Below, one piece after another: positions 33,496 to 49,800 of a stretch of DNA of 64,000 bases. Each line of letters begins with the position of its first letter. The first letter of the stretch is position 1. Both the position numbers and the translations under genes were made by a program. This stretch comes from Proteiniphilum acetatigenes DSM 18083 (lineage in GTDB: Bacteria; Bacteroidota; Bacteroidia; Bacteroidales; Dysgonomonadaceae): assembly GCF_000380985.1 (NCBI RefSeq), contig NZ_KB905710.1, forward strand, positions 1-64,000. The letters run 5' to 3'. The notes under the pieces were generated by a model that saw only the letters and a program-made list of their open reading frames with translations, did not search any database and had not been told where the DNA came from.

Positions 33496-34380
33496 ATGAA
33501 ACGAACAATTTTCTCACTTTTCTTATTTTCAGTAATGACGATAACCCTTATGGCACAGCATAATCCGGTACTGTTGTTTCCCGACGGTGCGCCGGGTGAA
33601 TCACGGAAGATGAAACAGGTGGATGACCAGAGCGGCAACAGGGTCGCCGGATGCCCTGTACTCCGTATCAGTAATGTGAGTGAACCGACACTTACTTTTT
33701 ATCCTGCGCCTGCCGGAAACAATACCGGTGCTACCATCATCGTGAATCCCGGAGGAGGTTATAATATACTGGCTTACAACCTTGAAGGATCGGAGATATG
33801 TAAGCGTTTCAATAGTTTCGGCATCAATTGTGTGTTGGTGAAGTACCGCGTGCCGCGCCGCGAAGGGTTGGAGAAACATACGGCTCCCTTACAGGATCTG
33901 CAACGCGCCATTGCCTATACACGTTCCCATGCAGGTGAATGGAATATCGATCCCGGCAGGATCGGGGTGATGGGCTTTTCTGCCGGAGCACATCTCTCGG
34001 CAATGGCAAGTACGGCGTATGGCGAACCTACTTATCCGAAGGTCGACGCTTATGATGATGTAAGTCTACGACCTGATTTCTGTATTCTTATCTATCCGGC
34101 CTACTTATCCGGAGAGAATTTTTCGATTGCTCCTGAACTGAAAGTGGATGCCAATACCCCTCCCACTATCCTTATCCAGACTCAGGACGACAAGGATTAC
34201 ATCAATAGTAGTTTGTTTTATTATTATGCGCTCAAAGAAGCGAAAGTGCCGGCTGCCATGCATTTATATCCCTCCGGCGGACATGGTTACGGCTTGCGTA
34301 ATACCGGTCACACGGTGAATGAATGGCCCCACCGCGTCCTTTCATGGATGCGGGATATCGGTATGATCGGGAACAGGTAG
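33496..34380 (+). CDS. Secreted alpha/beta hydrolase (acetyl-xylan-esterase-like)
   Basis: 294 residues with a signal peptide (hydrophobic core FSLFLFSVMTITLMA, cut near AQ). Alpha/beta-hydrolase fold: oxyanion-hole block VNPGGGYNILAYNLEG, nucleophile Ser162 in GFSAGAH, acid in QTQDDKD, and His in GGHGYGL near the C-terminus. Members with this arrangement are usually deacetylases of plant polysaccharides, such as xylan. No CAZyme genes lie next to it, so substrate is open. It has its own promoter. Confidence 0.85.
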   Translation: MKRTIFSLFLFSVMTITLMAQHNPVLLFPDGAPGESRKMKQVDDQSGNRVAGCPVLRISNVSEPTLTFYPAPAGNNTGATIIVNPGGGYNILAYNLEGSEICKRFNSFGINCVLVKYRVPRREGLEKHTAPLQDLQRAIAYTRSHAGEWNIDPGRIGVMGFSAGAHLSAMASTAYGEPTYPKVDAYDDVSLRPDFCILIYPAYLSGENFSIAPELKVDANTPPTILIQTQDDKDYINSSLFYYYALKEAKVPAAMHLYPSGGHGYGLRNTGHTVNEWPHRVLSWMRDIGMIGNR

Positions 34381-34551
34381 AAAAGCAAACCTTTTGCATA
34401 CCCTTTGTTTTCCGTTAATCACAATTATAATTTTCTTCCCATACAAATGCTTAATTAATTATAATACCGTCTGCATCTGAGAACAAATATTCTTCAGGAA
34501 CAGTTTTATAGATGATTAATTATCAACCGGCAGGTGAAACTTATAAGAATT

Positions 34552-35412
34552 ATGCAAAAACAAAATGAAGAAAAAAAATTACGTCCAGAGCAAAAACAAC
34601 GCCGTCCCGGAAAAGAGTCGAAAATGAGACCGGTTCCCCATACCGAACCTGTGAAACAACAAAATAAACTTGACGGAAAAGTTGCCCTCATAACCGGCGG
34701 CGACAGCGGCATAGGGAAAGCAACTGCCTTGCTCTTTGCGGCAAACGGGGCCGATATCGCCATAGCCTATTTGAGCGAAACGGACGATGCGAAAGCTACG
34801 CAAAAAGAGATCCGCGAAATGGGGAAGGAGTGCCTGCTCATAAGAGGCGACCTGTCCAAGGAAGTGAATTGCAAAAAAGCCGTCGATAAAACGATTGATA
34901 AATTTTCAAAACTCGACATTTTGGTAAACAACGCAGCCTTGCATTGGGAAACGGAAAGTCTGGAGGAAATATCGACCGATCAGTTGGAGCGCACTTTTGC
35001 TAACAATGTGTTCTCTTACTTTTGGGTTACCAAGTACGCCCTGAGACACTTAAAAGAAGGGAGCGCCATTGTGAATACAAGTTCCGTAACAGCTTACCGC
35101 GGAAGTGGAAAGCTGATTGATTATTCCGCTACCAAGGGCGCTATCATCAGTTTCACCCGCAGCCTTGCCCAAAGTCTGGCCCCGAAAAAAATACGGGTGA
35201 ATGCCGTGGCGCCCGGCCCTATATGGACGCCGCTGATTGTGTCGACATTCGATGAGAAAAGGGTTGCTGAATTCGGTAGCGATACGCCCCTGGGCAGAGC
35301 CGGAGAACCCAGTGAAGTGGCCCCCTGCTTTTTGTTTCTGGCCTCCGACGACTCGACTTACATAACCGGGCAATGCCTGCATCCGAATGGTGGCGAGATT
35401 GTGAATGCGTGA
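34552..35412 (+). CDS. SDR-family oxidoreductase, general stress type
   Basis: 286 residues from ATG 34552 (MQKQNEEKKLRPEQ); an upstream in-frame GTG at 34534 adds six residues. The charged N-terminal extension, about 45 residues, is typical of the YhdF/GS39-type stress SDRs. Rossmann motif TGGDSGIGKA, NNAA, catalytic Ser in NTSSV and the YSATKGA Tyr-x-x-x-Lys pair are all present; the tail TGQCLHPNGGEIVN is typical. Substrate unknown. Convergent with the GtrA gene, three bases apart, with no terminator between them. Confidence 0.88.
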   Translation: MQKQNEEKKLRPEQKQRRPGKESKMRPVPHTEPVKQQNKLDGKVALITGGDSGIGKATALLFAANGADIAIAYLSETDDAKATQKEIREMGKECLLIRGDLSKEVNCKKAVDKTIDKFSKLDILVNNAALHWETESLEEISTDQLERTFANNVFSYFWVTKYALRHLKEGSAIVNTSSVTAYRGSGKLIDYSATKGAIISFTRSLAQSLAPKKIRVNAVAPGPIWTPLIVSTFDEKRVAEFGSDTPLGRAGEPSEVAPCFLFLASDDSTYITGQCLHPNGGEIVNA

Positions 35413-35415
35413 TAT

Positions 35416-35832
35416 TTAACGGAAAGTAAAGAAATAGTTCGCCAGAAAATTCCACAGTGTGACAAGGGTGATGGCAGCCATCTTTGCCAGATAGAAATTC
35501 ACCTTACCTTTCTCGTGGAGCAGATAAAGAAAAAAATTATTCAGACCGAGTCCGATCAGGGATACTACAATAAAAGAGAGATACTCGCTTCGTAAATCAG
35601 GATTCTCGCTTTCAAAAGTCCATATTCTGTTCAGCAGGTAATTGGAGGTGGCTGCCAGTATGAAGCCGATAGAATTTGAAAGAAACTTATTCCATTTGAA
35701 CTTCTCTTTACATAGCCACGTAAAGAAAAAATCGACGATCATTCCTGATAATCCTACTGCCCCGAATTTCAAAAATTTCAGTAACAACTCAGAAATACTG
35801 ACTATTTCAAAGTCCGAAAAGATTTTTTCCAT
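35416..35832 (-). CDS. GtrA-family membrane protein
   Basis: 138 residues, four membrane spans, with FLKFGAVGLSGMIVDFFFTWL and NYLLNRIWTFES as family landmarks. GtrA proteins are small membrane proteins linked to polyprenyl-phosphate sugar flipping or recruitment. In mycobacteria a GtrA member (Rv3789) sits beside dprE1 and dprE2; here it is the last gene of a cluster with homologues of both. It overlaps the signal-peptidase gene by 31 bases, so translation is coupled. Confidence 0.88.
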   Translation of the reverse strand: MEKIFSDFEIVSISELLLKFLKFGAVGLSGMIVDFFFTWLCKEKFKWNKFLSNSIGFILAATSNYLLNRIWTFESENPDLRSEYLSFIVVSLIGLGLNNFFLYLLHEKGKVNFYLAKMAAITLVTLWNFLANYFFTFR

Positions 35833-36467
35833 TTTTCCTGAGAAAAGATGATTCTGTTTACTTTTCCTATGATCTCTTTTTCATTGACATAACCGAAGAA
35901 ACGGCTATCCCGTGAAATTTGCGGATTATCCCCCAAAACAAAATAGTAGTTGTTTTGTACCCGATAAATAGTCATTGGTTTTCCATTGATTGATATGGAA
36001 TTATTCTGCAATTCAACGGTATTATTCTCCCGTATAATGATCTCCTTATAATCAATGAAATTATCGGGATTGATAATAAGATCCGTCCCTTTTTGCAATA
36101 TTTGAGAAATTCGTTTCACCAGCAATACTTCTTTATTTTCAGGACTTTTAAAAATAATAAGATCGTTTTCCTGCGGCATTCTTAATCCCTTTAGCCGATG
36201 GTATCCCCAATTCGTTTCCATATCTTTTTCTCGCAGTGAGGGAATCCATGTGAAGATGTTTACAAGCGGAATATCAGACCAGCGGGCAGGTAGTATAGCG
36301 CCATAGCTGACCTTATCGATCCATAACCAGTCACCCGCCATAACAGTCGGTTCCATACTACCACTGGAAATACGGCACGGTTCACCGATAAAAGTCCGTA
36401 TTAAAATCGCAATAAAAAATATGCTTAAAAAGAGATGAACAAATTTATGAATAACTCTTCTCATCAT
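35802..36467 (-). CDS. lepB: Signal peptidase I (S26)
   Basis: 221 residues. One N-terminal membrane span (about 9-27), nucleophile Ser37 in SSGSMEPT, general base Lys118 in LLVKR, and the box E segment GDNPQISRDSRFFG. This is shorter than the main Bacteroidales LepB (about 300-480) and so may be an accessory signal peptidase. It overlaps its neighbours on both sides (31 and 23 bases). Its presence in a glycosylation operon that also encodes secreted proteins suggests a dedicated substrate; that is inference. Confidence 0.88.
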   Translation of the reverse strand: MMRRVIHKFVHLFLSIFFIAILIRTFIGEPCRISSGSMEPTVMAGDWLWIDKVSYGAILPARWSDIPLVNIFTWIPSLREKDMETNWGYHRLKGLRMPQENDLIIFKSPENKEVLLVKRISQILQKGTDLIINPDNFIDYKEIIIRENNTVELQNNSISINGKPMTIYRVQNNYYFVLGDNPQISRDSRFFGYVNEKEIIGKVNRIIFSQEKWKKSFRTLK

Positions 36468-37098
36468 CCAGATATTTGGAATTCATTTTTAAGATATGTG
36501 AAACATTCTTTGTAGTCAACTTAGCATTATAATGTATTTCCAATAACTCCAAAAAATAGTTATCGGAATTACTATTTCCATATCCGAAGCTAGTAGTATA
36601 ATTTTTCTCTTTAATTAAATCTAATACAATCCTTTTTTTTCTCAGCCCATGACAATTTCCTCCTTTAATCTTTCCCGTGAAAACCCCATTCTTTATTTCA
36701 TATATAGTTCCTATTAATTCCATCCCGTTTATATCGCACCATTTTTTCAACCAAATCGAAGAAGATGCTGTCAATATAATGATTCTATCATTCCTTTTTT
36801 TATGCCATTCTATAAGTTTAATTGCATCTCTTCGACAAATATATGGCAACTTCTTCTCACAAAATTCATTTCCTTTTTTAATCAAATATGATTCTGGTTT
36901 ATTCTTAAAAAAAAAGGAAAATAAGCGTTCTTTCAATTTAAAATTAGGATATATTCTAAAAAAATATAACAACGTAAATGGTATTAAACTCAATATTCCC
37001 TTATAAAAATGACTACCTTCACAGAATTTTATAAATTCAAAAAATGTATTTTTGAAAGTTATAGTACCATCCATATCAAAAACAGCAATACCTTTCAT
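36445..37098 (-). CDS. HAD-IB family phosphatase
   Basis: 217 residues, SerB-like HAD subfamily IB. Motif I FDMDGT with Asp8 and Asp10, motif II in IILTASSS, a Lys in the cap-proximal region and motif IV GYGNSNSDNYFL. In this setting, next to a UbiA-type transferase and DprE1/DprE2 homologues, it is a good candidate for removing the 5-phosphate from polyprenyl-phosphoryl-5-phosphoribose. Mycobacteria use a different phosphatase family for that step. The residues 40-75 are strongly hydrophobic, a possible membrane-contact cap. AT-rich compared with the leu genes. Confidence 0.8.
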   Translation of the reverse strand: MKGIAVFDMDGTITFKNTFFEFIKFCEGSHFYKGILSLIPFTLLYFFRIYPNFKLKERLFSFFFKNKPESYLIKKGNEFCEKKLPYICRRDAIKLIEWHKKRNDRIIILTASSSIWLKKWCDINGMELIGTIYEIKNGVFTGKIKGGNCHGLRKKRIVLDLIKEKNYTTSFGYGNSNSDNYFLELLEIHYNAKLTTKNVSHILKMNSKYLDDEKSYS

Positions 37099-37107
37099 AG
37101 ATTATCA

Positions 37108-37848
37108 TTATAAACTTAATTTTTTAAATATTTTCTCAGGAATCAATTTTATTATACAAGTGATCATCTTCCAGATTCCTAATACATAAATTTTTTCTTT
37201 CTTCCTTTTGTAAGCAATGTATATGGTTTTTGCAACTGTCGACGGTTGTGCTGTTAAAATAGAAGGAGTTTTTAAATGAGAAATCATCTTAGTGTCTATA
37301 TATCCTGGTATTACAGTTATTATATTCACGTGTGATTTAGAAAGCCTATTTCTCAATCCACTTAAATATGCTGTAAATCCAGCTTTAGCACTCCCATAAA
37401 TATAATTATTCCCTCTCCCTCTTTCACCGGCAACAGAAGAGATTCCTATGATTGTACCAGCATGGTCGTCTTCCATTATATTTGCCAGTATATTTAAAAT
37501 GGAAACATGAGCTACATAGTTATTATTAATTATAGCTAATGATTCGTTAAAATTGCCTAAAGCTTTATTATGATCCCCTAAATATCCAAAGACAGAAACA
37601 ACAACATCAGGAAACATAGGCAGTGATTTTACAAACTCCATGTGATTCTCAAATTCATTTCCATCGAATAAGAGATTAAAAGTTTTGACATCATTTTTAA
37701 TTGAAATATCAGCCGACAATCTTTGCTGATAATCTGTAATTTTTCTGGCAGCTAATTGGATGTCGAATCCCTCTTTTGCAAATTTATATGCAATAGCTTC
37801 ACCCAAATCCGAATTTGAACCAAGAATCAAACAGGTTTTATTGGCCAT
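37108..37848 (-). CDS. DprE2-like SDR (polyprenyl-phosphoryl-2-ketoribose reductase)
   Basis: 246 residues. Rossmann start LILGSNSDLGEAIAYKFA; catalytic ISSVAGERGRGNNYIYGSAKAGF with the Ser, Tyr and Lys of SDRs. The block AGERGRGNNYIYGS closely follows the corresponding part of mycobacterial DprE2 (AGERVRRANFVYGS), as does the C-terminal IPEKIFKKL. DprE2 reduces the 2-keto intermediate to the arabinose epimer, working with DprE1. The gene lies 33 bases after the DprE1-like gene. Confidence 0.83.
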   Translation of the reverse strand: MANKTCLILGSNSDLGEAIAYKFAKEGFDIQLAARKITDYQQRLSADISIKNDVKTFNLLFDGNEFENHMEFVKSLPMFPDVVVSVFGYLGDHNKALGNFNESLAIINNNYVAHVSILNILANIMEDDHAGTIIGISSVAGERGRGNNYIYGSAKAGFTAYLSGLRNRLSKSHVNIITVIPGYIDTKMISHLKTPSILTAQPSTVAKTIYIAYKRKKEKIYVLGIWKMITCIIKLIPEKIFKKLSL

Positions 37849-37881
37849 TTCATCAAAGATTTTATATTATTACTGTATCTT

Positions 37882-39195
37882 CTATATATCTAGTCTTGTA
37901 GACTGGAGAGATTGAAATTTATTAGGATGAGTAAAATCAGTATTGTACATTTCTTTAAACAGATTTTTTGGGATTAGAAGATCTTTTGTTAAGTATATTT
38001 TCCCTTCGTATTTGAGTACCAGTGTGTGTAGCTGATTGATTAAATCAATATTTTGACGATTTAATTTAAAATCAAGGGCTAATGTATAGCCTGGCATTGG
38101 GAACGAAATAGGTGCTGCATACTCGCATTTATCTCCCATAATTTTAAGAATAGCCAATGGAGAAAAACAAGATGAACTTACAATTTTATCGATGATATTT
38201 TTTATGCCTTCCTTACCCTTTGTAAATGGAATTACAAATTGGAATTGAGTGAATCCTTTTTTGCCATACACCCTATTCCAATTGCTGATACTATCCAAGG
38301 GATAAAAAAAACTATTATAGTGAATTAAAAAATTACTTTCTTTCTTTATTTGTTTATTATAATATATGGAGTTCCAATTGCTTATAAACTGTTTATTTAA
38401 TATAAACGAAGGAAACGTGAAAGGCACATTTATTAACGGGTTAGATCTCTGTACTTTTAATGGATTATTTTTTTTATCCACAGGTAAATCCTTTAACAGA
38501 GCATGTTCTCCCAACAAAAGGATAGATTTTCTGGTTGAATTTTTCATCGAGTTGCAATTAAGCCAAGCTACAGAATAAGTATAAAAATTATATTCTTCTA
38601 ATTTATCCAATAGTTCATCCACTCCTTTTATTTTTATAGATTTTTGTTTTAGATAAGCTGTCTCTATTTTCCTAAGTTTTAAAGTGACGGATACAATAAT
38701 TCCTGTCAGCCCCATTCCTCCAATTGTATTTGAGAACAATTGGGTATTGCGATTTCTAGAACATTCTATTAATTCCCCTTTTGCATTAATCAGTTCTATA
38801 TTCTCTATGTAAGATGAAAATGCGCCTTCCTTATGATGATTCTTTCCATGTACATTTGATGCTACGGCTCCTCCTAATGTAACGTATTTAGTCCCAGGTG
38901 TTACAGCAAGAAAAAAACCTTCAGGTACGATTAATTCCAAAAGGTCTTTTATTAAAATACCTGATTCTGCTTTTATAATGCCATTTTCAGAGTCGAAAGA
39001 GATAACTTTATTAAACCTTAAAGTTGAAATAATATGATCCTTATTAAGAGAACTATCCCCATAACAACGCCCATTACCTCTTGCTATCAAGTTGTTGCTA
39101 TTGACGATTATTTCATATAAATCGTCATAATCCTTTCGCTCTATCAAGTTTGTTTTAATACAAGGGTATAATCCCCAATTACAAATTTTTTCCAT
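37882..39195 (-). CDS. DprE1-like FAD-dependent oxidase (polyprenyl-phosphoryl-ribose 2'-epimerase, oxidising subunit)
   Basis: 437 residues. FAD PCMH fold: RGNGRCYGD at 39-47, PGTKYVTLGGAVASNVHGKNHH with the HGKNHH block at 116-121, GGMGLTGII, and in the substrate domain SFFYPLDSISNWNRVYGKKGFTQFQFVIP (shown in pieces: FYPLDSISNWNRVYGK). These are the hallmarks of decaprenyl-phosphoryl-beta-D-ribose 2-epimerase DprE1. It oxidises the C2 hydroxyl of the lipid-linked ribose. It overlaps the UbiA-type gene by 17 bases. A sugar dehydrogenase of other specificity is possible, but the partners argue for DprE1. Confidence 0.85.
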   Translation of the reverse strand: MEKICNWGLYPCIKTNLIERKDYDDLYEIIVNSNNLIARGNGRCYGDSSLNKDHIISTLRFNKVISFDSENGIIKAESGILIKDLLELIVPEGFFLAVTPGTKYVTLGGAVASNVHGKNHHKEGAFSSYIENIELINAKGELIECSRNRNTQLFSNTIGGMGLTGIIVSVTLKLRKIETAYLKQKSIKIKGVDELLDKLEEYNFYTYSVAWLNCNSMKNSTRKSILLLGEHALLKDLPVDKKNNPLKVQRSNPLINVPFTFPSFILNKQFISNWNSIYYNKQIKKESNFLIHYNSFFYPLDSISNWNRVYGKKGFTQFQFVIPFTKGKEGIKNIIDKIVSSSCFSPLAILKIMGDKCEYAAPISFPMPGYTLALDFKLNRQNIDLINQLHTLVLKYEGKIYLTKDLLIPKNLFKEMYNTDFTHPNKFQSLQSTRLDI

Positions 39196-40060
39196 ATAAA
39201 ATAATCGTAAAGATAAAAAACCAGATAATAATTACAATCTTTAAATATAAATCTTTCATTAGAATATTCATAGGACAACCCGATTTTCTTTCAACTATGG
39301 AAAGCTGTATATAACGCATAATGCCTATAAAGACAGGGATAGACGTAAGGTATAATTTATTCGAACCTATTCTTTCAATCACATCCTCAGAAACCGTATA
39401 GAGGATATATGTAATAAGAGTGACAGAAAAACCGATTGTTTCGGCCACATCCATAAAAACTATATTATATTCTTTTTGTACGTCCCGGTATATATACTTT
39501 TGCGATAATATAAGATCATCTCTTCGTTTGGCAAAAGCAATAGATACGGTGAGGAAAAATACAATAATCAGTATCCAATGACTGACAAATATGTCACTCA
39601 TAACCCCGCCGCTTTTTATTCTTAAAATGTATCCAAGACCTATGCATGATACATCGACGATTGGGATTTTTTTTAACGATACAGAATATGATAAATTTAA
39701 TGCTATATATAATATTACATATAAGCCGGAAGATTTCAGATAAGGAAATAACGAAATGAATATGATCAATAAAATAAAAGCGATAATTAAGGTTTGCTTT
39801 TTAGTGAAAAAGCCGCTTGCCAGCGGTCTTGTGAATTTTATTGGATGGTATTTATCCTTTTCAACATCCAGAACGTCATTGACAATATATATGATGGAGC
39901 AGGCCAAACAAAAAGAGGAAAAAAGAATGAATAAATCATATATTGTGTTTAACGGAAGATCGAAAATTCTGCCGGAAAAAAAAGCCGGAATAAATATCAT
40001 TCCATTTTTAATCCAATGATCTACCCTTATTAATTTAAGAAATTGGGAAATAGTTTTCAT
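39179..40060 (-). CDS. UbiA-family prenyltransferase, polyprenyl-phosphate phosphoribosyltransferase-like
   Basis: 293 residues, about eight membrane spans. The first aspartate motif NDVLDVEKD lies at 61-69 followed by HPIKFTRPLASG, the form seen in decaprenyl-phosphate phosphoribosyltransferase (Rv3806c type) and not in quinone prenyltransferases; the second motif region is FAKRRDD. The expected reaction joins phosphoribosyl pyrophosphate to polyprenyl phosphate. It overlaps the GT22 gene by four bases. Confidence 0.84.
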   Translation of the reverse strand: MKTISQFLKLIRVDHWIKNGMIFIPAFFSGRIFDLPLNTIYDLFILFSSFCLACSIIYIVNDVLDVEKDKYHPIKFTRPLASGFFTKKQTLIIAFILLIIFISLFPYLKSSGLYVILYIALNLSYSVSLKKIPIVDVSCIGLGYILRIKSGGVMSDIFVSHWILIIVFFLTVSIAFAKRRDDLILSQKYIYRDVQKEYNIVFMDVAETIGFSVTLITYILYTVSEDVIERIGSNKLYLTSIPVFIGIMRYIQLSIVERKSGCPMNILMKDLYLKIVIIIWFFIFTIILYGKNL

Positions 40061-41598
40061 GGTAATATGTAACTGATTTTTTCGTAATCTGTTATAAACG
40101 GATTGGGAGTGTATAAGAGCAATACAGAATTTTCATCATACACTTTATATAGTTTGTTAAAAAAGCTCATCCAAGTTGGGATACTTTCATGTTCAATTTT
40201 ATATCCGGATGTTTCAAGAAGTTCGCGTTCATGAAAATATCCTTTTGGAATAGTCACTATTGCATTATCCGGTATATCATTCAGAAACTCTGTATCAATA
40301 AAATGAAGGTTTACTTCATCATCCATATAGAATCTTTGAATCCAGCCTTTGGCATTCCCGATAGAATACGGTCCATAATAGGTACTGTAAATATCTATTG
40401 GATTACCCTTATAATAAGTTTTCTGGATATATTCAGCTAAATTTACAGCCCCGCTACCTGCGGGTTTGAAGATCATAAATAATCCCCCCGCATTTACTAT
40501 TATCACTGCGAAAATAAATGAGTGGAACATAACTTGGAAATATCTTTTCTTGATTTTATATATTATTCTCTGATAAGTCCAGATAAGTAAGATGGGGGCA
40601 AAATTAATTATCGGGAAAAAATACCGAATTTCTTTATGGCCTATGAAAGAGTGAATTACCAAATATGGTAAAATGCACCACAGAATAATATTTTTATAAT
40701 CATAAAATAATAAGTAAATCAGAGAAAACAAAATGGAAATACCAATAATTAATGTAGGCGCTGTTACAATTTTCTGAATATAATAATACCAGGGCTCTAA
40801 TCCATAAAAGTTTACTACATTGTCAATAAGATCAACCTTAAAATAATTATAAGGTGCAAAAACAAATTCTCCATAATAAATTGTATCTAACAGGGTACAT
40901 AAGAATACAATTGTAAATAGCCCACCCAGGACAAAGAAAAGATCCCTGAATCTGATTTTTTTAATTAATAATAACCATAATAGTAGACCTGTTACACAAA
41001 GTCCCATCTGGAAACGAAATTCAAAGCTTAATCCGAATAATACGCCTATAAGAAAAAAATAAATGTTGGTATGTCTATTTAATTGGATTAAACCTACAGA
41101 AACTAAGAGACATAAACCAGCCCATACTTCAGATGAGAAACGCACATTAATTGAGGGAAGAAACCATAGTACAAAAGATAAAAAGGAAAAGACCGTATAG
41201 AACCTTCTTTCTATAGTAGGCCTGAAACAACGGATAAAAAAGGAAATGGAAAAAACAGATAAAATTGCTGTTATTCCTCTTAATATCATTGCCAAAACAT
41301 ACGGGTTATTCAGATTAAATAAAGAAAAGAAGTAAAAAATACATAGAGCAATATACGGTTGTAATGACGAACGAATTTGTGAATCATATTCCCATGCCAA
41401 ATCATAACCGGTATTCCATCCCGCTTTTAATCCGGCAAATTCAATTAACTGGAAATGTTCATCGGGATGATGGAAGCCGTTACTATAGAAAATAGATAAG
41501 GTGTATATGACTATAATGATATATATATTAAAAGATTTAATATACGTTATCTGGTTCTTTTTTAGATTTTGTACCATATATACTAAAATTGACTTCAT
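40057..41598 (-). CDS. GT22-type GT-C glycosyltransferase (GPI/Alg9 mannosyltransferase-like)
   Basis: 513 residues, about ten membrane spans. Family GT22 signs: HPDEHFQ at 44-50 (the first-loop acidic motif), WEYDSQIRSSLQP shortly after, FEFRFQMG, and the GHKEIRYFFP box. GT22 enzymes of eukaryotic GPI and N-glycan synthesis use dolichyl-phosphate mannose on the lumenal side; here a polyprenyl-phosphate sugar is expected on the periplasmic side. The start overlaps the DUF1573 gene by 62 bases; a second ATG at codon 8 would still overlap by 41. Confidence 0.82.
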   Translation of the reverse strand: MKSILVYMVQNLKKNQITYIKSFNIYIIIVIYTLSIFYSNGFHHPDEHFQLIEFAGLKAGWNTGYDLAWEYDSQIRSSLQPYIALCIFYFFSLFNLNNPYVLAMILRGITAILSVFSISFFIRCFRPTIERRFYTVFSFLSFVLWFLPSINVRFSSEVWAGLCLLVSVGLIQLNRHTNIYFFLIGVLFGLSFEFRFQMGLCVTGLLLWLLLIKKIRFRDLFFVLGGLFTIVFLCTLLDTIYYGEFVFAPYNYFKVDLIDNVVNFYGLEPWYYYIQKIVTAPTLIIGISILFSLIYLLFYDYKNIILWCILPYLVIHSFIGHKEIRYFFPIINFAPILLIWTYQRIIYKIKKRYFQVMFHSFIFAVIIVNAGGLFMIFKPAGSGAVNLAEYIQKTYYKGNPIDIYSTYYGPYSIGNAKGWIQRFYMDDEVNLHFIDTEFLNDIPDNAIVTIPKGYFHERELLETSGYKIEHESIPTWMSFFNKLYKVYDENSVLLLYTPNPFITDYEKISYILP

Positions 41599-42019
41599 CG
41601 TTACTCACAATACCCTTGATAGTTACTAAGATCGGAGATTCATACCCGTAAAAATATATAAACACCACCCTCTCGATATAACCGTAATCCAACTCTGTTG
41701 GGGTGAAATTTAATTTAATCACAGAACTTTCTTTAGGCTCTAAAATAAACGGAGTGTTAGAAATCTTACTGATAAGGCACTTACAACTGGTTTGAATTTG
41801 TGCTACCTGTATTTTGTTTTCACTTAAATTTTTTAACGGAATATCTATGTCAAACTTATTTTTTTTATTTCGAGATGTAATTATTTTTCCAAAATCTACT
41901 TCTGTTGGTATTTCTATTTGGAGAACATTCGTTTTTCTCGAATTACATCCTGAAATCGTAATACAAATAACTGATAATATTAGAAAGCACTTATATATTT
42001 TGTGTTTATTTTCTTGCAT
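41537..42019 (-). CDS. DUF1573 lipoprotein
   Basis: 160 residues, lipobox ISGC with Cys25. One DUF1573 (immunoglobulin-like, ASH/MSP-related) domain: FGKI, the conserved SCKCLISKISNTPFILEPKESSVIKLNFTP-type region with the Cys pair, and a closing strand ILVTIKGIV. In Bacteroidales such proteins accompany NVEALA peptides and propeller lipoproteins. Overlaps its neighbours on both sides (14 and 62 bases). Role unknown. Confidence 0.82.
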   Translation of the reverse strand: MQENKHKIYKCFLILSVICITISGCNSRKTNVLQIEIPTEVDFGKIITSRNKKNKFDIDIPLKNLSENKIQVAQIQTSCKCLISKISNTPFILEPKESSVIKLNFTPTELDYGYIERVVFIYFYGYESPILVTIKGIVSNDEVNFSIYGTKSKKEPDNVY

Positions 42020-43214
42020 CTTGTACTATTTGTTGTATGTTGATAAATACGATTATTGGATTACCATCTTCCTCAAATTCCGAACGAATCTCTTTTATTG
42101 ATTCATTCTCACTTATTATATCTTCGTTAACTTCTTTAAAACCATCTCTTAGCATAAAAACTGCGACGAAATATTTATTTGTACTGGCTTTAAAGTTTCC
42201 AAAAGAAACTATGTCAGCTATGGGATATTTATAAAATTCTTTATCTAAAGTTATTGAAAAGTTTTGGTTATATTGTAAATCTCTAAATATGTGATAAATC
42301 TTATTTTTATGATAATTATTGTATAATAGGTATAAATATTCATCTGTAGATAATATCTGTTCTAATCCTAATGAATAATTATCTTTCTTTAAATTACTAT
42401 CGAAATCCAATATTGTTCCTGTTTCGTTTCTACCTGAAAATTTTGTATTTTTATTAATCTGTTTCAAATGAGTACTCACTAATAGATATGGGTTAATGTT
42501 ATTATTATGATATTTTTGAACAATGTCTGAATATTGTGTAAGAATAAAACAGGTGTCTTGAACCATTGTGACCCTAGGAAAGCCATATTTCATTGAAACG
42601 TTATTAGTAGCTAGATAGGGGAAAACTTTCCTTTCCAATTTCATGTTTTCTTCATCTACCAGTAAGTATTCATATTTATTTCTTGGCTCGTTGTAGGTTG
42701 TGAGTACTAATTTGTTCTCATCGCTCAGTAGGTCTACATCATAGAATTCAGAGATCGAGTTATCGTACTTAATTTTATCAAGTAATATCCCATTATAGGA
42801 GTATTTGAAGACAGTTTGTCTAAGAATATCAAAAATTGCTATATATTTTTTAATTGGGTGTACGTAAAAACTAACAATGCTTAATTGCTCATTTGGGCCT
42901 CCACCTTTTTCTCCAATCGTATTTAAAAAAGTGCCATTTGTATCAAATACAAATATCTTATTATTAGAATCTAAAATAAATATTTGATTATCTTTGACAA
43001 CCAATTTTTCAATATTGTTTCCAATTAAACAATTTTCGTTAGTCTCTAATTGAATATAAGTGGAATTTTTTATAAAATTACCGGGGGTGATTTTAATTTC
43101 TTCAAGTTCTTCAATATCAATGATCAAATCAATAGATTGCCTTTCTTGTTTGGGATTACAAGACAAAATCAATCCGTTTAGTATAAGAATGAGAATATAT
43201 TTTTTCATTTTCAA
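42006..43214 (-). CDS. 6-bladed beta-propeller lipoprotein
   Basis: 402 residues. Lipobox LILSC with Cys19 places it on the membrane surface. The N-terminal IQLETNENCLIGN block, IFVFDTNGTFLNTIGEKGGGPNE and repeated FxxDILxxxVFKYSxxG strands are typical of the Bacteroidales 6-bladed propeller family. No catalytic residues visible; such proteins probably bind ligands or partners. The ETNENCLIG segment serves as reference for the TGA-interrupted homologue at 62332. Spacing to the protease gene is 13 bases. Confidence 0.87.
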   Translation of the reverse strand: MKMKKYILILILNGLILSCNPKQERQSIDLIIDIEELEEIKITPGNFIKNSTYIQLETNENCLIGNNIEKLVVKDNQIFILDSNNKIFVFDTNGTFLNTIGEKGGGPNEQLSIVSFYVHPIKKYIAIFDILRQTVFKYSYNGILLDKIKYDNSISEFYDVDLLSDENKLVLTTYNEPRNKYEYLLVDEENMKLERKVFPYLATNNVSMKYGFPRVTMVQDTCFILTQYSDIVQKYHNNNINPYLLVSTHLKQINKNTKFSGRNETGTILDFDSNLKKDNYSLGLEQILSTDEYLYLLYNNYHKNKIYHIFRDLQYNQNFSITLDKEFYKYPIADIVSFGNFKASTNKYFVAVFMLRDGFKEVNEDIISENESIKEIRSEFEEDGNPIIVFINIQQIVQDARK

Positions 43215-43227
43215 AGATTTATATTTG

Positions 43228-44592
43228 TTATTTTTTTAATTGAATAAACATTTTATTCAGATTCAATGTGATCTTACTAAATTTATTAATGAAATCCGTT
43301 CCTAAAGAGCCATCAGCAGAGGGATCTTCCATAAAATAGTCTACAGTATAAATGGGGATATTTTTAAGAGAGAAAAATGTTTCACCAATTAATAATGCAA
43401 GTGAAGGCATTTGATAAATAGTATCGGACTTAATGGCTCCTACTCCGAAGGAATAAGTGAGTTTTTTCTCTAACGTTGTTTCTATTTCATTTCTATTTTT
43501 TAAATAATAGGATTTGAACATATGACTATTACTATTTCCCGTGTCAAGATGAAATGTAATAAGATCATCTTCACTAAAGGCTTTAACGATAATATTATTT
43601 CTTTCGTCGAGTATAATATTCCGGCCTGAAATAGGTAATTCGCTTTCTTTCTGAGGGATTATTATCTTCTTGTCGGAGGGATATAATTGTATCTCTCCTA
43701 TTCTTTTTATAAAATCTATTCCTAAAACTCCATCAATATAGTCATTTATATTTTCATTTCTGAAAATACCGGATTTTTCCAAAAAATTATCACTGACTAC
43801 AATCAATAGATTATAAAGAGTTACTTCTCCCAATGAGATATTATCTAATATTGCTAAATTTCCCTGGCTTATCCCTGTACCTGATATATTTATCGAATCA
43901 TTCAGGTAATGTAAATTTATATTTTTTGAAGTATTATTAAAAATGCAAGTTGTTTCATATCCCGTATCTAGAATGAAGACATATTCTTTTCCTTGTATAA
44001 AAATTTTCACTACTCCTAGAGCACTTGTCATGTCGTGAATTGTGTCTTCATCTTTTCGAGAAGTAAAATCCATTTCTATTGTGCCGAAGGGAATTTCAAT
44101 ATTTTTTTCCGGCTTTATTACTTGGGTTTTCTCCTCATTACGTAGTGAATTATAAAAATTATACATTTCTTCAAATTTTTTTAATTCTTCTTGAGGCAAA
44201 TTTTCAGAAACTTGGTCTATAAAATTTTTCAATTCACCAGCTATAAAGCCGTACTCACCCTGATAAGCCAATAAAGATATTTTATATCGAAATAATTCTA
44301 CACTATTAGTAAAACCGATATTTTGTTGGTATTTATGTAGAAGGGTATCAATTGATGAAATCGCGGCCTCGTTTTGATTAAATTTGATATTTAACAAGGA
44401 TTCTGTAAGCCACTTAAGTTCAGGCGTTTTAATACTGTCTTGTATTTGAGGATATTCTTTCTCTAGAGCAAACCAGTTATTTTGTTTTAACAATTCGTGG
44501 ATAAAGATATCATATTTTTGAGCATTTAAATGCTCAAAAAATAATATAATTATAGAAAATATCATTACTTTTTTATTAATCTTACTTTTCAT
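43228..44592 (-). CDS. Double-domain retropepsin-like aspartic protease, secreted
   Basis: 454 residues with a signal peptide (core VMIFSIIILFFEHL, then AQ). Residues about 30-160 are helical and TPR-like. Two aspartyl-protease half domains follow, with catalytic Asp209 (ILDTGYETT) and Asp350 (HLDTGNSNS), each with its closing GVLGIDF (about 289-295) or GSLGTDF (about 437) motif. Proteins of this type may process surface or secreted peptides. Here it lies directly downstream of the Ser/Gly-rich peptide gene, separated from it by a large stem-loop. Confidence 0.85.
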   Translation of the reverse strand: MKSKINKKVMIFSIIILFFEHLNAQKYDIFIHELLKQNNWFALEKEYPQIQDSIKTPELKWLTESLLNIKFNQNEAAISSIDTLLHKYQQNIGFTNSVELFRYKISLLAYQGEYGFIAGELKNFIDQVSENLPQEELKKFEEMYNFYNSLRNEEKTQVIKPEKNIEIPFGTIEMDFTSRKDEDTIHDMTSALGVVKIFIQGKEYVFILDTGYETTCIFNNTSKNINLHYLNDSINISGTGISQGNLAILDNISLGEVTLYNLLIVVSDNFLEKSGIFRNENINDYIDGVLGIDFIKRIGEIQLYPSDKKIIIPQKESELPISGRNIILDERNNIIVKAFSEDDLITFHLDTGNSNSHMFKSYYLKNRNEIETTLEKKLTYSFGVGAIKSDTIYQMPSLALLIGETFFSLKNIPIYTVDYFMEDPSADGSLGTDFINKFSKITLNLNKMFIQLKK

Positions 44593-44616
44593 AACATTGT
44601 TGGATTGATTATCTTA

Positions 44617-44707
44617 AAAATGAGGCAAGGAAAATGCAAATAGAACTTTTAGGTAAACGTTATGGAAATATTTAGATTTCTAGTATTTACATTCCTTGCC
44701 TCATTTT
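44617..44707. promoter_or_regulatory. Large stem-loop between the Ser/Gly-rich peptide and protease genes
   Basis: Perfect 16-base arms AAAATGAGGCAAGGAA (44617-44632) and TTCCTTGCCTCATTTT (44692-44707), with imperfect pairing continuing inward for about eight more bases. The GC-richer arms stand out in AT-rich DNA. It sits in the only sizeable gap of the operon, so it may limit read-through from the peptide gene, stabilise its mRNA 3' end, or be a small MITE-like element. Confidence 0.7.
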
Positions 44708-44777
44708 GCTGTTTTGTAATTATATATTACAAGATCGTCTTTATTCTCTTAAGTATAAAAATACCTGAATAAATTTG

Positions 44778-45263
44778 TTAAAATGTTACTTTAATTGTAC
44801 CTGAAATGGACCAATCACAGTTTGAATTAAAAGAATAAGAACATGAGGCTACTGAAATTTTAGCGGATGCTCCAACTGTATAGCTACCATATTTTTTACT
44901 CCCTCCAAATTCAATATAAGCTCCATAACTGTCTTCTTTAACTGTTGATGACCCAGTTAACGTCCAGACTATTTTACTATTATTGGAAGAAGGATTGGAA
45001 CTGCTACCGCCAGAACTGCTACCGCCAGAACTGCTACCACCAGAACTGCTACCACCAGAACTGCCACCTCCGGAACTGCCACCTCCAGAACTGCCACCAC
45101 CTCCAGAACTATCTCCTCCACCTGAACCATTCGACTGAGCCAATACTTCCACATGCAATTTATTGTCTACTATTCCGTAGTCATCCAGTGCATGTTTGAA
45201 GTTCAGCGTAAGCGCAAACAGTAAGGTTGCTATGCCTAAAATTGTTAAGTAAATCTTTTTCAT
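44778..45263 (-). CDS. Secreted Gly/Ser-rich peptide with NVEALA-like leader
   Basis: 161 residues. The leader resembles NVEALA peptides: MKKIYLTILGIATLLFALTLN, then LHVEVLAQ at 37-43 in place of NVEALA. Residues about 45-95 are a Gly/Ser tract built of a GGSSS unit, which at DNA level is a 15-bp tandem repeat. The C-terminal 65 residues (from about 97) look beta-rich with two Cys (SCSYSFNSNCDW) that could form a disulfide. Gene is flanked by a GT-C enzyme and an aspartic protease. The Ser tract would suit O-glycosylation. No exact family recognised. Confidence 0.75.
   Translation of the reverse strand: MKKIYLTILGIATLLFALTLNFKHALDDYGIVDNKLHVEVLAQSNGSGGGDSSGGGGSSGGGSSGGGSSGGSSSGGSSSGGSSSGGSSSNPSSNNSKIVWTLTGSSTVKEDSYGAYIEFGGSKKYGSYTVGASAKISVASCSYSFNSNCDWSISGTIKVTF
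44998..45120. repeat. 15-bp tandem repeat in the Gly/Ser-rich peptide gene
   Basis: Eight units, GAACTGCTACCGCCA and variants, at 15-base steps with one 18-base unit at 45088-45105. Units 1-2 are identical, as are 3-4, pointing to recent unit duplication. A change of one unit keeps the frame and alters the Ser tract by five residues. Confidence 0.9.
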
Positions 45264-45302
45264 TTCTGTTAATTATTTGATTATTAATTGATATAATTGA
45301 AT

Positions 45303-46706
45303 TCAACTATTCATCTTCTGATTATTTTCATCCCGCCAATGACGGGATTGTCGGAAGACCACGCTATCGTAAAAGATAAGATATGTTTTCATTGTTCCAT
45401 TGTCAGGTTGAAATAAATGGTAATCGTTTCGTTGTTTCAGTAATTCCCTTAGTTCTTTCTTCAACGTATCGGTATTATACCATGTATACGTGCGTTTGTG
45501 GGCATAAAACCCTAAATACAGTATGTAGCTGGTAAAAAGTATTACTGTTAATAATTTAAGGCTTTTCTTTCTGATCCTGTTATACAGAATAACACCGTAA
45601 TAAGCCAATATAAATCCTATTCCTATCACTGCAACATAGGCATATCTATCGGCCACAATGGCAAAGCGTGATAGCGGAATGATATGCAAAGCCAGAGCGA
45701 TATGGATGGTAAAAAATAAAAATCCGAAAGCCATCGGCCATTGCCTGATAAACGTCCATAATGATACCGCAATAACTAGTATTATTGCCGGATACACCAA
45801 CAGCCAGTTGGGTAACGGATCTCCGATAGCAGAAGGAAAAGGATACAGGTAGGATAACTTAAACGGGAAAATGATTTTGAACAGGTATTCCAGATAAGCA
45901 TAAGAGGCATAAACAATACGCTGCCATACTGGGTAATTGTCATGCCCGGCAAGAAATCCTCCTCCGTCGGTGTACTGGGAATAGATGGTGACAATCCCGA
46001 AAATAATGGATAACACGAAGAACGGCAGGGTTGCCATCCATGCCTTCCTATCTGATAGCTTCCGGTTCAATAACCAGTATATCAATAGCATCCATACCGG
46101 GAAAACTACCGCCTGCTCTTTTCCCAGAAAAGAGAGAACGTATAATAAGAGTGTGTATATGTAAAACCGTGCTTTCGCGGTTTCCATATAACGGAGAAAC
46201 GTGTAGGTTGCCAGTAAATAGAAGAGGGCATATACCAATACCTTTGATGCGCTCATCCATGCAACCGATTCAACATTGAACGGATGAACGCAGAATATAA
46301 GGGAAGTGATCAATGAAACCGGCGGAATTATTTTAATATCGATTTTTCCGCTTAAAGTAAGCAATTTCTCTATTACTAAGAATACCAGGCAGGTATTGAT
46401 GATATGCAGGATAAGACTTGCCAGATGAAAGACAAATGGATTATATCCGGCCACAGAATATAAGATCAGGTATAAATATTCATTAAAAGGGGCATATTGT
46501 CCATGATAGAATTCGGTAAGTATTCGCCATATATTCTGAAATGTGAATCCACCTTCAGTATATTGGTTCATCACGACCCATTGGTCGTCCCAGAAATCGA
46601 GCAACTGATTACTAAGGATCGGGTAATATATTGCCAATGCAGAGATTCCCAGTATTATGAAATACAAGTAGCGGAAAGAAAAGATAGATGGCCTTTGTGT
46701 TTCCAT
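45303..46706 (-). CDS. TMTC/PMT-like GT-C membrane glycosyltransferase
   Basis: 467 residues, about eleven membrane spans. The first periplasmic loop carries FWDDQWV, the acidic pair typical of GT-C active sites, and NIWRILTEFYHGQYAPF; further on HPFNVESVAWMSASK and ADRYAYVAVIGIGF correspond to the DUF1736-containing TMTC protein O-mannosyltransferases. It starts the gene train, 40 bases upstream of the Ser/Gly-rich peptide gene. Protein O-glycosylation of that peptide is inferred from position only. Confidence 0.75.
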   Translation of the reverse strand: METQRPSIFSFRYLYFIILGISALAIYYPILSNQLLDFWDDQWVVMNQYTEGGFTFQNIWRILTEFYHGQYAPFNEYLYLILYSVAGYNPFVFHLASLILHIINTCLVFLVIEKLLTLSGKIDIKIIPPVSLITSLIFCVHPFNVESVAWMSASKVLVYALFYLLATYTFLRYMETAKARFYIYTLLLYVLSFLGKEQAVVFPVWMLLIYWLLNRKLSDRKAWMATLPFFVLSIIFGIVTIYSQYTDGGGFLAGHDNYPVWQRIVYASYAYLEYLFKIIFPFKLSYLYPFPSAIGDPLPNWLLVYPAIILVIAVSLWTFIRQWPMAFGFLFFTIHIALALHIIPLSRFAIVADRYAYVAVIGIGFILAYYGVILYNRIRKKSLKLLTVILFTSYILYLGFYAHKRTYTWYNTDTLKKELRELLKQRNDYHLFQPDNGTMKTYLIFYDSVVFRQSRHWRDENNQKMNS

Positions 46707-46898
46707 AAGGAAAAGAATTACGTTTTCATCCTATCGGACCGGCTCGTTTTTGGTTATTTGCCTCTTCCGGCACTATTCATCTGTCATTGCGATTGTGATA
46801 AACGCTTTTATCTCAGTATTGTACTGATAGAGGGCAAATATGGGATATTATTTTGATTATTACAAATATTTTTTTATGTTATCCAACATATTTCACCT

Positions 46899-49800
46899 TC
46901 ATCTCTTAACCATCAACAGAGGCATGAAAATAAAGATGCCGATAAAAGACATGATCAGGCCTCCAATAGTGCCGGCGGCCAGCGGGAACCAGAAGCCTTC
47001 TTTCTGCGTGCCGACCAGAAAGGGGATAAAGCCGAGCACGGTGGAGATAATGGTCAGGAAGATGGGGATAATCTTCGCGTTCCAGGCTTTCAGGTATGTC
47101 CGTAACGGGGAGAGGCGGGGCCTGCGCCTTCTTATCCGGTTGTATTCGTCCGTGATATAAATTCCGGCGTTGATGGTGATACCCGACAGGAGGATAAACG
47201 AGGCAAAGCCGCCCTGGTCGAAGTTGAGTTTGAACCAGTAAAATGTAAGGAAAATACCGATAAAGGATACCGGGATGATGAAGATCACGGCCAGTGGCTG
47301 TTTCAACGAATTGAACAGGATGGAGGAGGTGAAAAATATGATCACGATCAGCAACCCTATCAACCGGTACTGCTTATTGTCTTTCTTGCCCCAGCCCCAG
47401 TAGCTGTCTTCCCTTTGCGCGGTATAACCCATGGGGAGCCGTTTGTTGAATTCCTCGATCTCCCTTTCCAGGATTTTCTGTCCCTGCGTGTTGGAGCCGA
47501 TATAATCGTATTGCAGTACCAGACGGTATTGCTGGTTTTCCTTACCTACCTCCTGCGGCGCCTGCCCCCTGGCAATATCGGCCACTTCGTCCAGTTTATA
47601 GTAGCGATCGCCCACGTGACGCCCCAGATGCTGCAATGCCCAGATATCATATTCCCTTGCCTGCCTGCCGGAGAGGATGATATCTTCGTTTTCCCCGTCC
47701 ATCACCACGGAGCCGATCCACATATTCCTCGCAAAGACCGGCTGGAGGGAGGCGAACAGTTCGCCGGGTAAAATATCCCGCGCTGCAAGCTGTTCTTTTT
47801 TCAGGTCGAATAAGAACTCCTGATAATCGTCCTTATACCACGAAAAATTGGAGTTGACGATCACTTCCCGGATGCGGCGATAGGTAAGTAACCGCTGCTT
47901 CAGGCTGTCCGTCCATGCCGACAATTCATCGTAGTTATATCCATAGAGCTTTACCCTGTATTGTCCGGCCATATCCCGGACCTCGTTGCTGAACCCCTGG
48001 TCCTGCAACCCGTACACGCCCCAGCTGCCGCCGCCCAACTCCAGGGCTTTACTGATCACATTGCTTTTCAACTGGTAGGGAAAGCCGCTCTGCTCGGCTT
48101 CCTTCCTGAAAAAGACATTGATCGATGCCCGCCGGGCATTGGGGATACTGGTCTGGAACTGCCGTATCTCGGAAAAGCCGCTCAGGTAACGTTCCATCTT
48201 GACAACCAGGTCGTTCATCTGTGAAAGAGTGGTGCCGTTGGGCATTGAAGCGGTGATGGTGAGCACCAGTTCTTCACTGCGGGTGAAGTAACTTCCCTGG
48301 TAAACTTTCTCCACAAACAGCCGCAGGGTACCCCCCAACGCTTTATTGACGACCGGTTTAATTTTTTCTTTGTAGGTGGCGCTCCCGAATATTTCATTAT
48401 ACTTCAAAGCGAAGGGAGTCTCCTTTTCTATCTTGTCCGGCAACATGAAAACCGGCAACCCGAATAACAGGACGATACATGTGAAAGCGATCCATTTCCT
48501 GCGGGACAGCAGCAGGATCATTTTTTCATAGAGACGTGTGAGCCGGATGGCGATTCGCCCCCGGGAAAGATAGCGATGGCGAAAACCGGCAAGACGGTCG
48601 GAACGGCCAAAAAGGCGGAATCGGGAAAGGAGACGGAATCGGGGCGTTCTCCTCTTCCTGTGCCGCTTTGTAAGCCTTATCCGCTCGACTAAGGCCGGGA
48701 CGAACAATAGCGCCACGAACAATGATACCATCAGGTTGATCATCACCACCGCCGCGAAATCCTGCAGGTTGAGCCGTATCCGTTCATCCAGCAGGAAGAT
48801 CATGGACAATGCGCCGATGGTGGTGACCGTAGCGGTCAGGATAGGCATAAAGGCATTCCTGTCCCCCTTGTGCATAATATGGTCGGTCATGATGATGGCA
48901 TTGTCGATGATCAGGCTCAACGAGATGGTGATGCCGGCCAGGGAAAACAACTGTATCTCCAGTTTGAGCAGATAGTAGAAGATGACGGCGATAGCCAGGT
49001 CGACAAAAAGGCTGGCGGTGATCAGGAAGAGGTAACGCCCGTTGCGGGTGATCAGCAATACGAAAAGGGTGAGAATCAACACGGTGAGCCCGCTACGGAT
49101 ATAGATCTTGTTTAGTTCGGCCTGGATATAGTCGGTAGCATCGTAACTGGCGTGTATCTCGTAACCGGCCGGGAGCGATGCTTCCACCTCCCGCATCGTC
49201 TTTTTCACCTGCTCGTTCAGGCGTAACTGGTTGGCCGACTCTTCCGCCGTGAGGTTGAGGTAAACGGAGTTGAGCCCGTTGATCCGGTAATAGCCCGACG
49301 GTTCCCTTTCCGCATGATGCACCCTCACCAACTGGTCCAGACGGATAAGGGCACCATCCCTGTTCGCCACGTGGATGACGGTGGGGTCGAACCGGTTCTC
49401 CTCGGCTGTGGATGCCAGTGTGACGCGGATCCATGACGGGGCACTGCCCTCTGTTTTTGTCTCCGCCATCCCCAGGAAATCGGTGGAGTAATACTGAGAT
49501 ACGGCTTGCATGATATCCGTCACGGTCACGCCGGCAGATTCCAGTTGCAGGTAGTCATATTCCAGTTGCCATTCCATGGGACTGGCACCGGTCACGTCGA
49601 TCTTGTACAATCCCTTGATATCGCTCAGTGCCGTCTTGATCACGTTCTCTGTATAGCGCTGAATAACGATGGGGGTAGCTGCCGAATTAATAGTGTAGGT
49701 CATAAAGGGACGGGCAGCATTGTCATCGGGACGGTTTACGGAGATATAAGGATAAGTCACTTCCCGCGGGAGTTCCGGCCATGTCTGGCGGATGATGGTA

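Follow-up and report, generated by a model that had tools for sequence, protein, structure and literature searches.

We analysed a window of 64,000 nucleotides from Proteiniphilum acetatigenes DSM 18083, a member of the Bacteroidales (contig NZ_KB905710.1, positions 1 to 64,000). Its minus strand carries one string of genes that runs from a TMTC-like membrane protein to a GtrA-family protein. We argue that this string belongs to a mobile island that would glycosylate a secreted protein. Its donor module would make a polyprenyl-phosphate pentofuranose, probably D-arabinofuranose. Judged by homology and gene order, we put the chance of this reading at about even. The main interest is the use to which the pentose cassette appears to be put, namely a protein-glycosylation island whose lipid-linked donor genes seem to be exchangeable.

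In the direction of transcription the string encodes the TMTC-like protein, a Gly/Ser-repeat protein, an aspartyl-protease-family protein, a 6-bladed propeller, a DUF1573 protein and a GT22 glycosyltransferase. These are followed by UbiA, the DprE1-like oxidase, the DprE2-like SDR, a HAD phosphatase, signal peptidase I and GtrA (coordinates are in the table). An earlier note on this DNA covered the second half of the string and described it as a set of mycobacterium-like pathway genes. UbiA, HAD, the two DprE-like enzymes and GtrA are all present there with their motifs, on the minus strand, and their family matches are far beyond chance. What it missed is the signal peptidase between HAD and GtrA, the GT22 nature of the 513-residue gene, the upstream continuation of the string and the exported candidate acceptor. 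It also described the genes as overlapping, which holds in part. The overlaps are 4 bp for GT22/UbiA, 17 bp for UbiA/DprE1, 23 bp for HAD/signal peptidase and 31 bp for signal peptidase/GtrA, while gaps of 33 and 9 bp separate DprE1 from DprE2 and DprE2 from HAD. The genes from HAD to the protease have a GC content of 0.27-0.31. It is 0.37-0.41 in the signal peptidase, GtrA, Gly/Ser-protein and TMTC-like genes, and 0.49-0.53 in the nearest flanking genes.

The oxidase, the SDR and UbiA belong with DprE1, DprE2 and DPPRS, not with unrelated dehydrogenases. Family models, a gap in PDB scores and conserved residues all point this way. The oxidase scores 351.7 bits against the DprE1 model NF053785 (equivalog cut-off 500); other Gram-negative DprE1 proteins also fall under that cut-off (6 of 6, at 370-427 bits). 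A PDB sequence search with the oxidase finds DprE1 structures at 214-228 bits and the next PDB sequence at 41.7. The SDR reaches 160.6 bits with the DprE2 model NF053786 (cut-off 250), and its best model is PRK07102, an unspecific SDR model whose own cut-off it passes. UbiA scores 189.1 bits with the DPPRS model NF008977, below the cut-off of 234, yet this is its best model, and its best PDB match is the DPPRS structure 8j8j. Tyr60, His132, Lys134 and Lys418 (M. tuberculosis numbering), which we take to be the catalytic residues of DprE1, are all found in the window protein. The first three are kept in 100 of 100 aligned DprE1 sequences and Lys418 in 99, with a gap in the other. At the positions of Asn385 and Cys387 the window has Thr and Ala, as do 90 of the 100 sequences in each case. 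The phylogeny of the oxidase had been named in advance as a refuting test. In a quick tree of 102 rows it lies among the DprE1 proteins with the loci L036, L037 and L038 (all Bacteroidota; SH-aLRT 99), apart from other FAD_binding_4 oxidases, of which two from the same genome form the outgroup on very long branches. Since the three enzymes are related to DprE1, DprE2 and DPPRS, the product is likely a polyprenyl-phosphate pentofuranose. The arabinose of the earlier note is a step further from the homology, and D-arabinofuranose is probably the sugar.

A separate observation concerns the Cys387 position. In the 100-sequence alignment 90 sequences have Ala there, 4 have Ser, 3 have Thr and 2 have Cys, while one has a gap. 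The Cys is found in one mycobacterial sequence and in L112; 97 of the 99 non-mycobacterial sequences have another residue.

The pathway is likely right in outline but ordinary in its distribution, so the cassette itself cannot count as a novelty. A search of 296 Bacteroidota genomes found DprE1 relatives in 64, and the best 80 of 85 DprE1 loci come from many phyla, with Pelagibacteraceae, Agrobacterium and Vibrio among the sources. Within the genus only the window genome and Proteiniphilum sp. X52 (G305) have a match, among 37 genomes. We selected 98 cassette loci as DprE1 matches, no two of them with an identical DprE1. UbiA is directly upstream of DprE1 in 64, DprE2 directly downstream in 70, and both arrangements hold in 49. 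UbiA and DprE2 adjoin with a HAD gene within 2.5 kb in 20 of the 98, and the UbiA frame exceeds 430 residues in 15, which fits a putative HAD-UbiA fusion. Systems with a polyprenyl-phosphoribose synthase and a HAD phosphatase, and with DprE1/DprE2 homologues in the arabinofuranose cases, were described by Kelly et al. 2024 (PMC11127046; this paper and the two others cited below are drawn on for parts of their text). Because the cassette is common and such systems are published, the pathway is plausible, but it is not a new kind of system. The HAD phosphatase, offered in the earlier note as a variation, is already described there for Gram-negative pentofuranose systems. Nor does GtrA need a mycobacterial-type set, for in the relative G687 it stands after the genes of a TMTC-like protein, a GT22 and a signal peptidase, in a stretch with no UbiA or DprE gene. 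Literature searches, judged mainly by titles and the beginnings of abstracts, found no paper on cassette products in Bacteroidota.

The island itself is marked by its identity to a second species. From 33,874 to 47,228 there is no substitution relative to X52; the sole difference is one 15-bp unit in the Gly/Ser repeat, of which X52 has one fewer. Outside this region identity drops to 0.93-0.95 between 28.6 and 33 kb on the left side and to 0.89-0.96 between 48 and 58 kb on the right side, and it is lower in the next two kilobases. The sequence comparison indicates that the island has been exchanged recently between two Proteiniphilum species. Each of its edges lies within a gene (33496-34380 on the left, 46899-50144 on the right), a pattern that homologous exchange would leave, and this is how it would have spread.

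The candidate acceptor has a conserved leader of about 44 residues ending in EVLAQS, then a Gly/Ser linker and a variable C-terminal part. The core of the leader is N...A..D.G. Narrow searches found the leader in 4 of 286 genomes of the order and 2 of 295 of the class, the window's own counted in both. The search of the order gave 7 leader loci, and in 5 of them the neighbour of the peptide gene is a TMTC-like gene, a GT22 gene or the decayed remnant of such a gene. Ten leader sequences were aligned. The first 12 residues after the leader are 43% Ser/Thr in these ten peptides, compared with 16% in 9 NVEALA peptides of the window genome and 19% in the remainder of the same leader proteins (Mann-Whitney p 2.4e-4 and 3.5e-4, rough values since the sequences are related). 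The Ser/Thr figure fits a glycosylated acceptor, and the coupling of the pentose genes to those of this small serine-rich protein in one recently exchanged island suggests that the protein may be decorated with pentose. The NVEALA peptides were also tried as partners of the cassette and rejected, because a profile built from those of the window genome found none near pentose genes in 157 loci (L036-L192) save the genome's own. With no NVEALA beside pentose genes elsewhere, the link is to the Gly/Ser type of leader. The hairpin after the Gly/Ser gene has a z of -4.61 over a 198-base stretch (44593-44790). Six stretches after other peptide genes were folded and read by eye, without shuffles. In C30, C31 and G687 and for one G899 peptide, the peptide gene is directly followed by a hairpin that differs in sequence; no clear one follows it in G448 or in contig C14 of X52, where the reading frame is altered.

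Two relatives have much of the same unit. In G687 a TMTC-like gene (63% identity), GT22 (47%), signal peptidase (48%) and GtrA (54%) stand in order, followed by what by eye are RND-type efflux genes. This stretch has no UbiA, DprE1, DprE2 or HAD, and the UbiA query has no match in the G687 genome. On another contig there is a second GT22 gene, and its neighbour encodes a peptide that bears this leader, with 56% identity to the Gly/Ser protein over its first 66 residues. Next come genes for a propeller (23% identity), an unmatched small protein and a member of the aspartyl-protease family. A single contig of G899 has three leader peptides, propellers, a TMTC-like gene (310 bits), a signal peptidase (142 bits) and a GT2 gene. 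The best matches of this GT2 are PgfS (270.8 bits, cut-off 500) and ArnC (172.1 bits), both under the cut-offs. Its resemblance to them means that another donor synthase is present there. The PgfS-like GT2 genes of G687 (47 and 40% identity) lie away from its TMTC-like unit, while the window genome has no close one (best 28% identity). Leader peptides are also encoded on two further contigs of the window genome. On C30 they come with a TMTC-like gene that is truncated where the contig begins, and on C31 with a decayed copy of one.

Shortened TMTC-like copies, in which, judged by eye, the N-terminal part runs straight into the C-terminal part, were seen at L261 (on C31) and at 10233-10505 of L262. 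A gene at 10717-11100 of the latter locus resembles GtrA by eye, and both loci look like decayed copies of the unit.

Either of two membrane proteins could transfer the sugar. The GT22 protein matches PF03901 at 114.8 bits (gathering cut-off 23.8). A single-sequence PDB search finds nothing at E 1, but a profile of 7 GT22 relatives finds the PDB 9s6t mannosyltransferase at 1e-9 and ALG9 at 6.3e-8. The TMTC-like protein matches PMT_2 at 19.6 bits, under the cut-off of 26.1, and a PDB sequence search with its profile finds nothing at E 1. Its gene occurs in 2 of 39 genus genomes, and its relatives stand at 62, 38 and 87% identity. Structures were predicted from eight sequences. One of five models is usable (pLDDT 67.5, pTM 0.75), with Foldseek matches to STT3, PglB, ArnT and AftD; the best, a human OST-A chain, has E 4.6e-4, probability 1.00, TM 0.45 and a root-mean-square deviation of 13.9. 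We have moderate confidence that the predicted fold is GT-C-like. The 4-bp overlap with UbiA favours GT22 for the pentose transfer, whereas neighbours in other genomes favour the TMTC-like protein. Two loci have a TMTC-like gene directly before UbiA, with DprE1 and DprE2 further on: the overlap with UbiA is 8 bp in L105 (from a Flavobacteriaceae bacterium), and in L055 (a Nitrospiraceae metagenome-assembled genome) the gene ends about 60 bp short of UbiA. In L037 (a Bacteroidales metagenome-assembled genome) a TMTC-like TPR protein lies about 6 kb off on the opposite strand. These are the TMTC-like matches in 3 of 98 other cassette loci; all three distant relatives carry C-terminal TPR repeats and the window protein shows none. 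Since L105 and L055 are unrelated loci, and L037 has such a neighbour as well, TMTC-like enzymes have come together with the cassette on more than one occasion. For the Gly/Ser protein this island is the only case. GT22 was tried as a marker of pentose transfer and rejected, since UbiA matched in 0 of 20 GT22-bearing genomes, G687 included, in a search without a positive control of its own. Both L037 and L036 (Hydrotalea) have the order UbiA-DprE1-DprE2-HAD with no evident GT-C gene directly adjoining.

The scheme we propose runs as follows. UbiA would place ribose-5-phosphate from phosphoribosyl pyrophosphate onto polyprenyl phosphate, and the HAD enzyme would remove the 5-phosphate. DprE1 and DprE2 would invert C2 by way of a 2-keto intermediate to give polyprenyl-phosphate arabinofuranose, which GtrA would flip. 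In the periplasm the TMTC-like protein, GT22 or both would transfer the sugar to Ser just after the leader of the Gly/Ser protein. The string's signal peptidase would cut this protein near VLA/QS; Ser37 and Lys118, presumably its catalytic residues, are invariant across 4 aligned sequences. The propeller, DUF1573 and protease proteins may serve export, anchoring or processing. The four-gene cassette would be a donor module added to an older unit of peptide, GT-C enzyme and signal peptidase, perhaps with GtrA. The sequences show directly which genes are present and in what order, which relatives they have and how closely the island matches that of X52. We infer the reactions by homology, and the acceptor, sugar, cleavage site, accessory roles and history of the cassette are offered in the same spirit. 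A broader version would make this a modular secretion-and-glycosylation system of the Bacteroidales for small proteins that share the leader. In it the signal peptidase and GT-C enzymes would act on a Ser/Thr tract after the leader, the lipid-linked donor module would be exchangeable, and a PgfS/GtrB-like donor would have been exchanged for a polyprenyl-phosphate D-arabinofuranose type in Proteiniphilum before the block spread between species. The donor swap is drawn from one island and two relatives, and we hold this version tentatively, as possible but well short of even.

Several results weigh against protein glycosylation by this island. DprE1, DprE2 and UbiA all score under their NCBIfam equivalog cut-offs. 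The Gly/Ser protein has no Pfam match at E 1, and the cassette and this protein occur together only in this island (the window genome and X52, one event). None of the 98 other cassette loci has a GT22, Gly/Ser-protein or aspartyl-protease match. In the stretches read around them, the leader loci of G448 and of G899 contig C140 lack any GT-C match. GT22 relatives are in 57 of 295 order genomes and the leader in far fewer, so GT22 usually works without such peptides, and GT22 enzymes are best known for mannose donors. The Ser/Thr comparison rests on related sequences. Four of the five TMTC-like models have pLDDT 41-51, and the GT-C fold matches of the model are at deviations of at least 9 A.

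One can also explain the string in other ways. The pentofuranose may serve a surface polysaccharide or a lipopolysaccharide side chain, with the exported protein and the propeller genes as passengers. Other Gram-negatives are known to use it in this way (PMC11127046), and elsewhere in Bacteroidota the cassette lies near other membrane or polysaccharide-type genes by eye (L038, L043) or, as in L036 and L037, apart from any evident GT-C neighbour. However, no polysaccharide cluster was recognised among the genes of the string, to which the search was confined, and the four genes are embedded in a unit of which parts reappear, with leader peptides, in G687 and G899. We consider this scenario rather unlikely, and it is still the strongest of the three. 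Another scenario is that the exported protein carries a different sugar from a GtrB/PgfS-type donor, and that the cassette stands beside GT22 by chance and has another acceptor. The missing UbiA in GT22-bearing genomes and the PgfS-like GT2 genes of both relatives fit this. The window genome's lack of a close PgfS-like GT2 does not, nor do the overlaps of UbiA with GT22 and of HAD with the signal peptidase, nor the TMTC-like genes directly preceding UbiA in L055 and L105 too. We think it distinctly unlikely. In a third scenario the DprE1/DprE2-like enzymes might make a different epimer or use another polyprenyl-linked sugar, so that the final pentose is not arabinose. The sub-cut-off scores and the Thr and Ala at the Asn385 and Cys387 positions allow for this. 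But the catalytic positions are kept, and the frequency of UbiA directly upstream and DprE2 directly downstream of DprE1 also speaks for the usual pathway. This last scenario seems to us the least probable, a slim chance. Glycosylation of the Gly/Ser protein with a lipid-linked pentofuranose is the reading we prefer.

Other features of the window and its genome can be noted. An NVEALA protein at 57321-57710 (PF14055, 6.1e-9) lies between 6-bladed propeller genes (56126-57256 and 58167-59360), on the operon's strand and about 11 kb upstream of it. A further NVEALA cluster (L205/L206, G000:C6:360001-387664) has five NVEALA matches, propellers and two signal-peptidase-like genes, one of them short, together with a Wzy_C protein (O-antigen ligase family, 1.9e-18) that has a weak TPR match. 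GT22 gene pieces alternate with NVEALA peptides and a propeller at L173 (10035-11021, at the end of contig C19) and L174 (contig C32). These pieces sit at assembly breaks, and the assembly is fragmented in these repeats. The gene 62332-63297 matches PF17170 within a run of propeller-type gene pieces (61846-63998) that are possibly remnants. A small overlapping pair at 61218-61484 and 61475-61735 resembles by eye a YoeB-type toxin and a YefM/Phd-type antitoxin. PADLOC gave weak matches only, to the aspartyl-protease-family protein. Scans for promoters (69 seen, 63.4 expected), terminators (8 and 7.5) and TANNTTTG (55 and 53.3) were at chance.

Table. Features of the island and its gene string, in window coordinates.
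Feature	Position	Strand	Match or score
GtrA-family putative lipid-phosphate-sugar flippase	35416-35832	-	PF04138 2.7e-28
Signal peptidase I paralogue	35802-36467	-	PF10502 5e-29; TIGR02227 103.6 bits (cut-off 47)
HAD-IB phosphatase, proposed 5-phosphate phosphatase	36445-37098	-	PF12710 1.1e-24; TIGR01488 70 bits (cut-off 45)
DprE2-like SDR reductase, motif AGERGRGNNYIYGS	37108-37848	-	PRK07102 1.2e-84, 283.7 bits (cut-off 267); DprE2 model 5e-47
DprE1-like polyprenyl-phosphoribose oxidase, motif HGKNHH	37882-39195	-	NF053785 7.6e-105; PDB 4aut 1.5e-66
UbiA/DPPRS-like polyprenyl-phosphate phosphoribosyltransferase, motifs NDVLDVEKD and RPLASG	39179-40060	-	NF008977 1.1e-55; PDB 8j8j 1.2e-28
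GT22/Alg9-like GT-C membrane glycosyltransferase, 513 aa	40057-41598	-	PF03901 (Glyco_transf_22) 7.2e-33
DUF1573 protein, lipoprotein-like N-terminus by eye	41537-42019	-	PF07610 5.5e-11
6-bladed beta-propeller protein, lipoprotein-like N-terminus by eye	42006-43214	-	PF17170 1.4e-23
Aspartyl-protease-family (retropepsin-like) protein	43228-44592	-	PF13650 2.4e-11
Long RNA hairpin then U run, 3' of the Gly/Ser-protein gene; possible partial terminator	44616-44707	-	z -4.61
Exported Gly/Ser-repeat protein, 161 aa, proposed acceptor	44778-45263	-	
15-bp tandem repeat, 6.9 copies, within the Gly/Ser linker	44998-45101	-	
TMTC-like, GT-C-like membrane protein, 467 aa, WDDQW motif	45303-46706	-	PMT_2 0.0011
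Island without substitution relative to a second Proteiniphilum species (G305/X52)	33874-47228		

If our reading is true, the Bacteroidales use D-arabinofuranose on a lipid carrier, a sugar donor familiar chiefly from the cell walls of mycobacteria, to decorate one particular exported protein. Donor pathways would then be pluggable into a common protein-glycosylation chassis. A pathway common in Bacteroidota would gain a concrete acceptor and testable genes, and glycoengineering would gain donor and acceptor parts.

The Gly/Ser protein is like the NVEALA proteins (PF14055) in being small, with a long N-terminal leader that ends in a VEALA/EVLA motif, adjoining propeller genes and, in some cases, signal-peptidase-like genes. 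It differs from them in having no match to the NVEALA model, and the own-genome NVEALA profile misses it even at E 5. A literature search found nothing under 'NVEALA'. The mycobacterial decaprenyl-phosphoryl-arabinose pathway consists of Rv3806c, Rv3807c, DprE1, DprE2 and Rv3789 (PMC11127046). The window shares a DPPRS-like UbiA, DprE1-like and DprE2-like enzymes and a GtrA protein with it. Unlike that pathway, the string has a HAD phosphatase and no PAP2 phosphatase, it has GT22 and the TMTC-like protein in place of Emb/Aft with no arabinan genes seen, and its DprE1-like protein has Ala at the Cys387 position.

Another comparison is the three-component system of Citrobacter youngae O1/O2, as given in the portion of PMC11127046 used here. 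By homology a polyprenyl-phosphoribose synthase, a HAD phosphatase, a flippase and a GT-C enzyme are again in one locus. The window has GtrA for the MATE flippase and GT22 and the TMTC-like protein for GT136, and its proposed acceptor is a protein, not an O-antigen. The GT22 Pfam match argues against a GT136 identity for 40057-41598.

A protein that a GT-C enzyme arabinosylates is already known, namely the type IV pilin of Pseudomonas paraeruginosa, where TfpW adds D-arabinofuranose and PSPA7_6245-6251 form the gene set (PMC12369383, from the part used). We propose a comparable arrangement in the window, a GT-C enzyme with an arabinofuranose gene set that includes ubiA. It differs in phylum, in that no pilin family is among the string proteins scanned (the genome was not searched for pilins), and in its candidate acceptor, a Gly/Ser protein that has a leader and is accompanied by the gene of a signal peptidase. 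The Pgf layout of Streptococcus mutans is a second analogue. As far as the part of PMC5856776 used here describes it, the membrane-bound glycosyltransferase and PMT_2-type proteins PgfS, PgfM1 and PgfM2 are needed to modify a surface protein encoded next to them. The window likewise has membrane glycosyltransferase-type genes near the gene of an exported candidate acceptor, and the relative G899 has a PgfS-like GT2. Unlike in S. mutans, the donor role in the window would fall to UbiA, HAD, DprE1 and DprE2.

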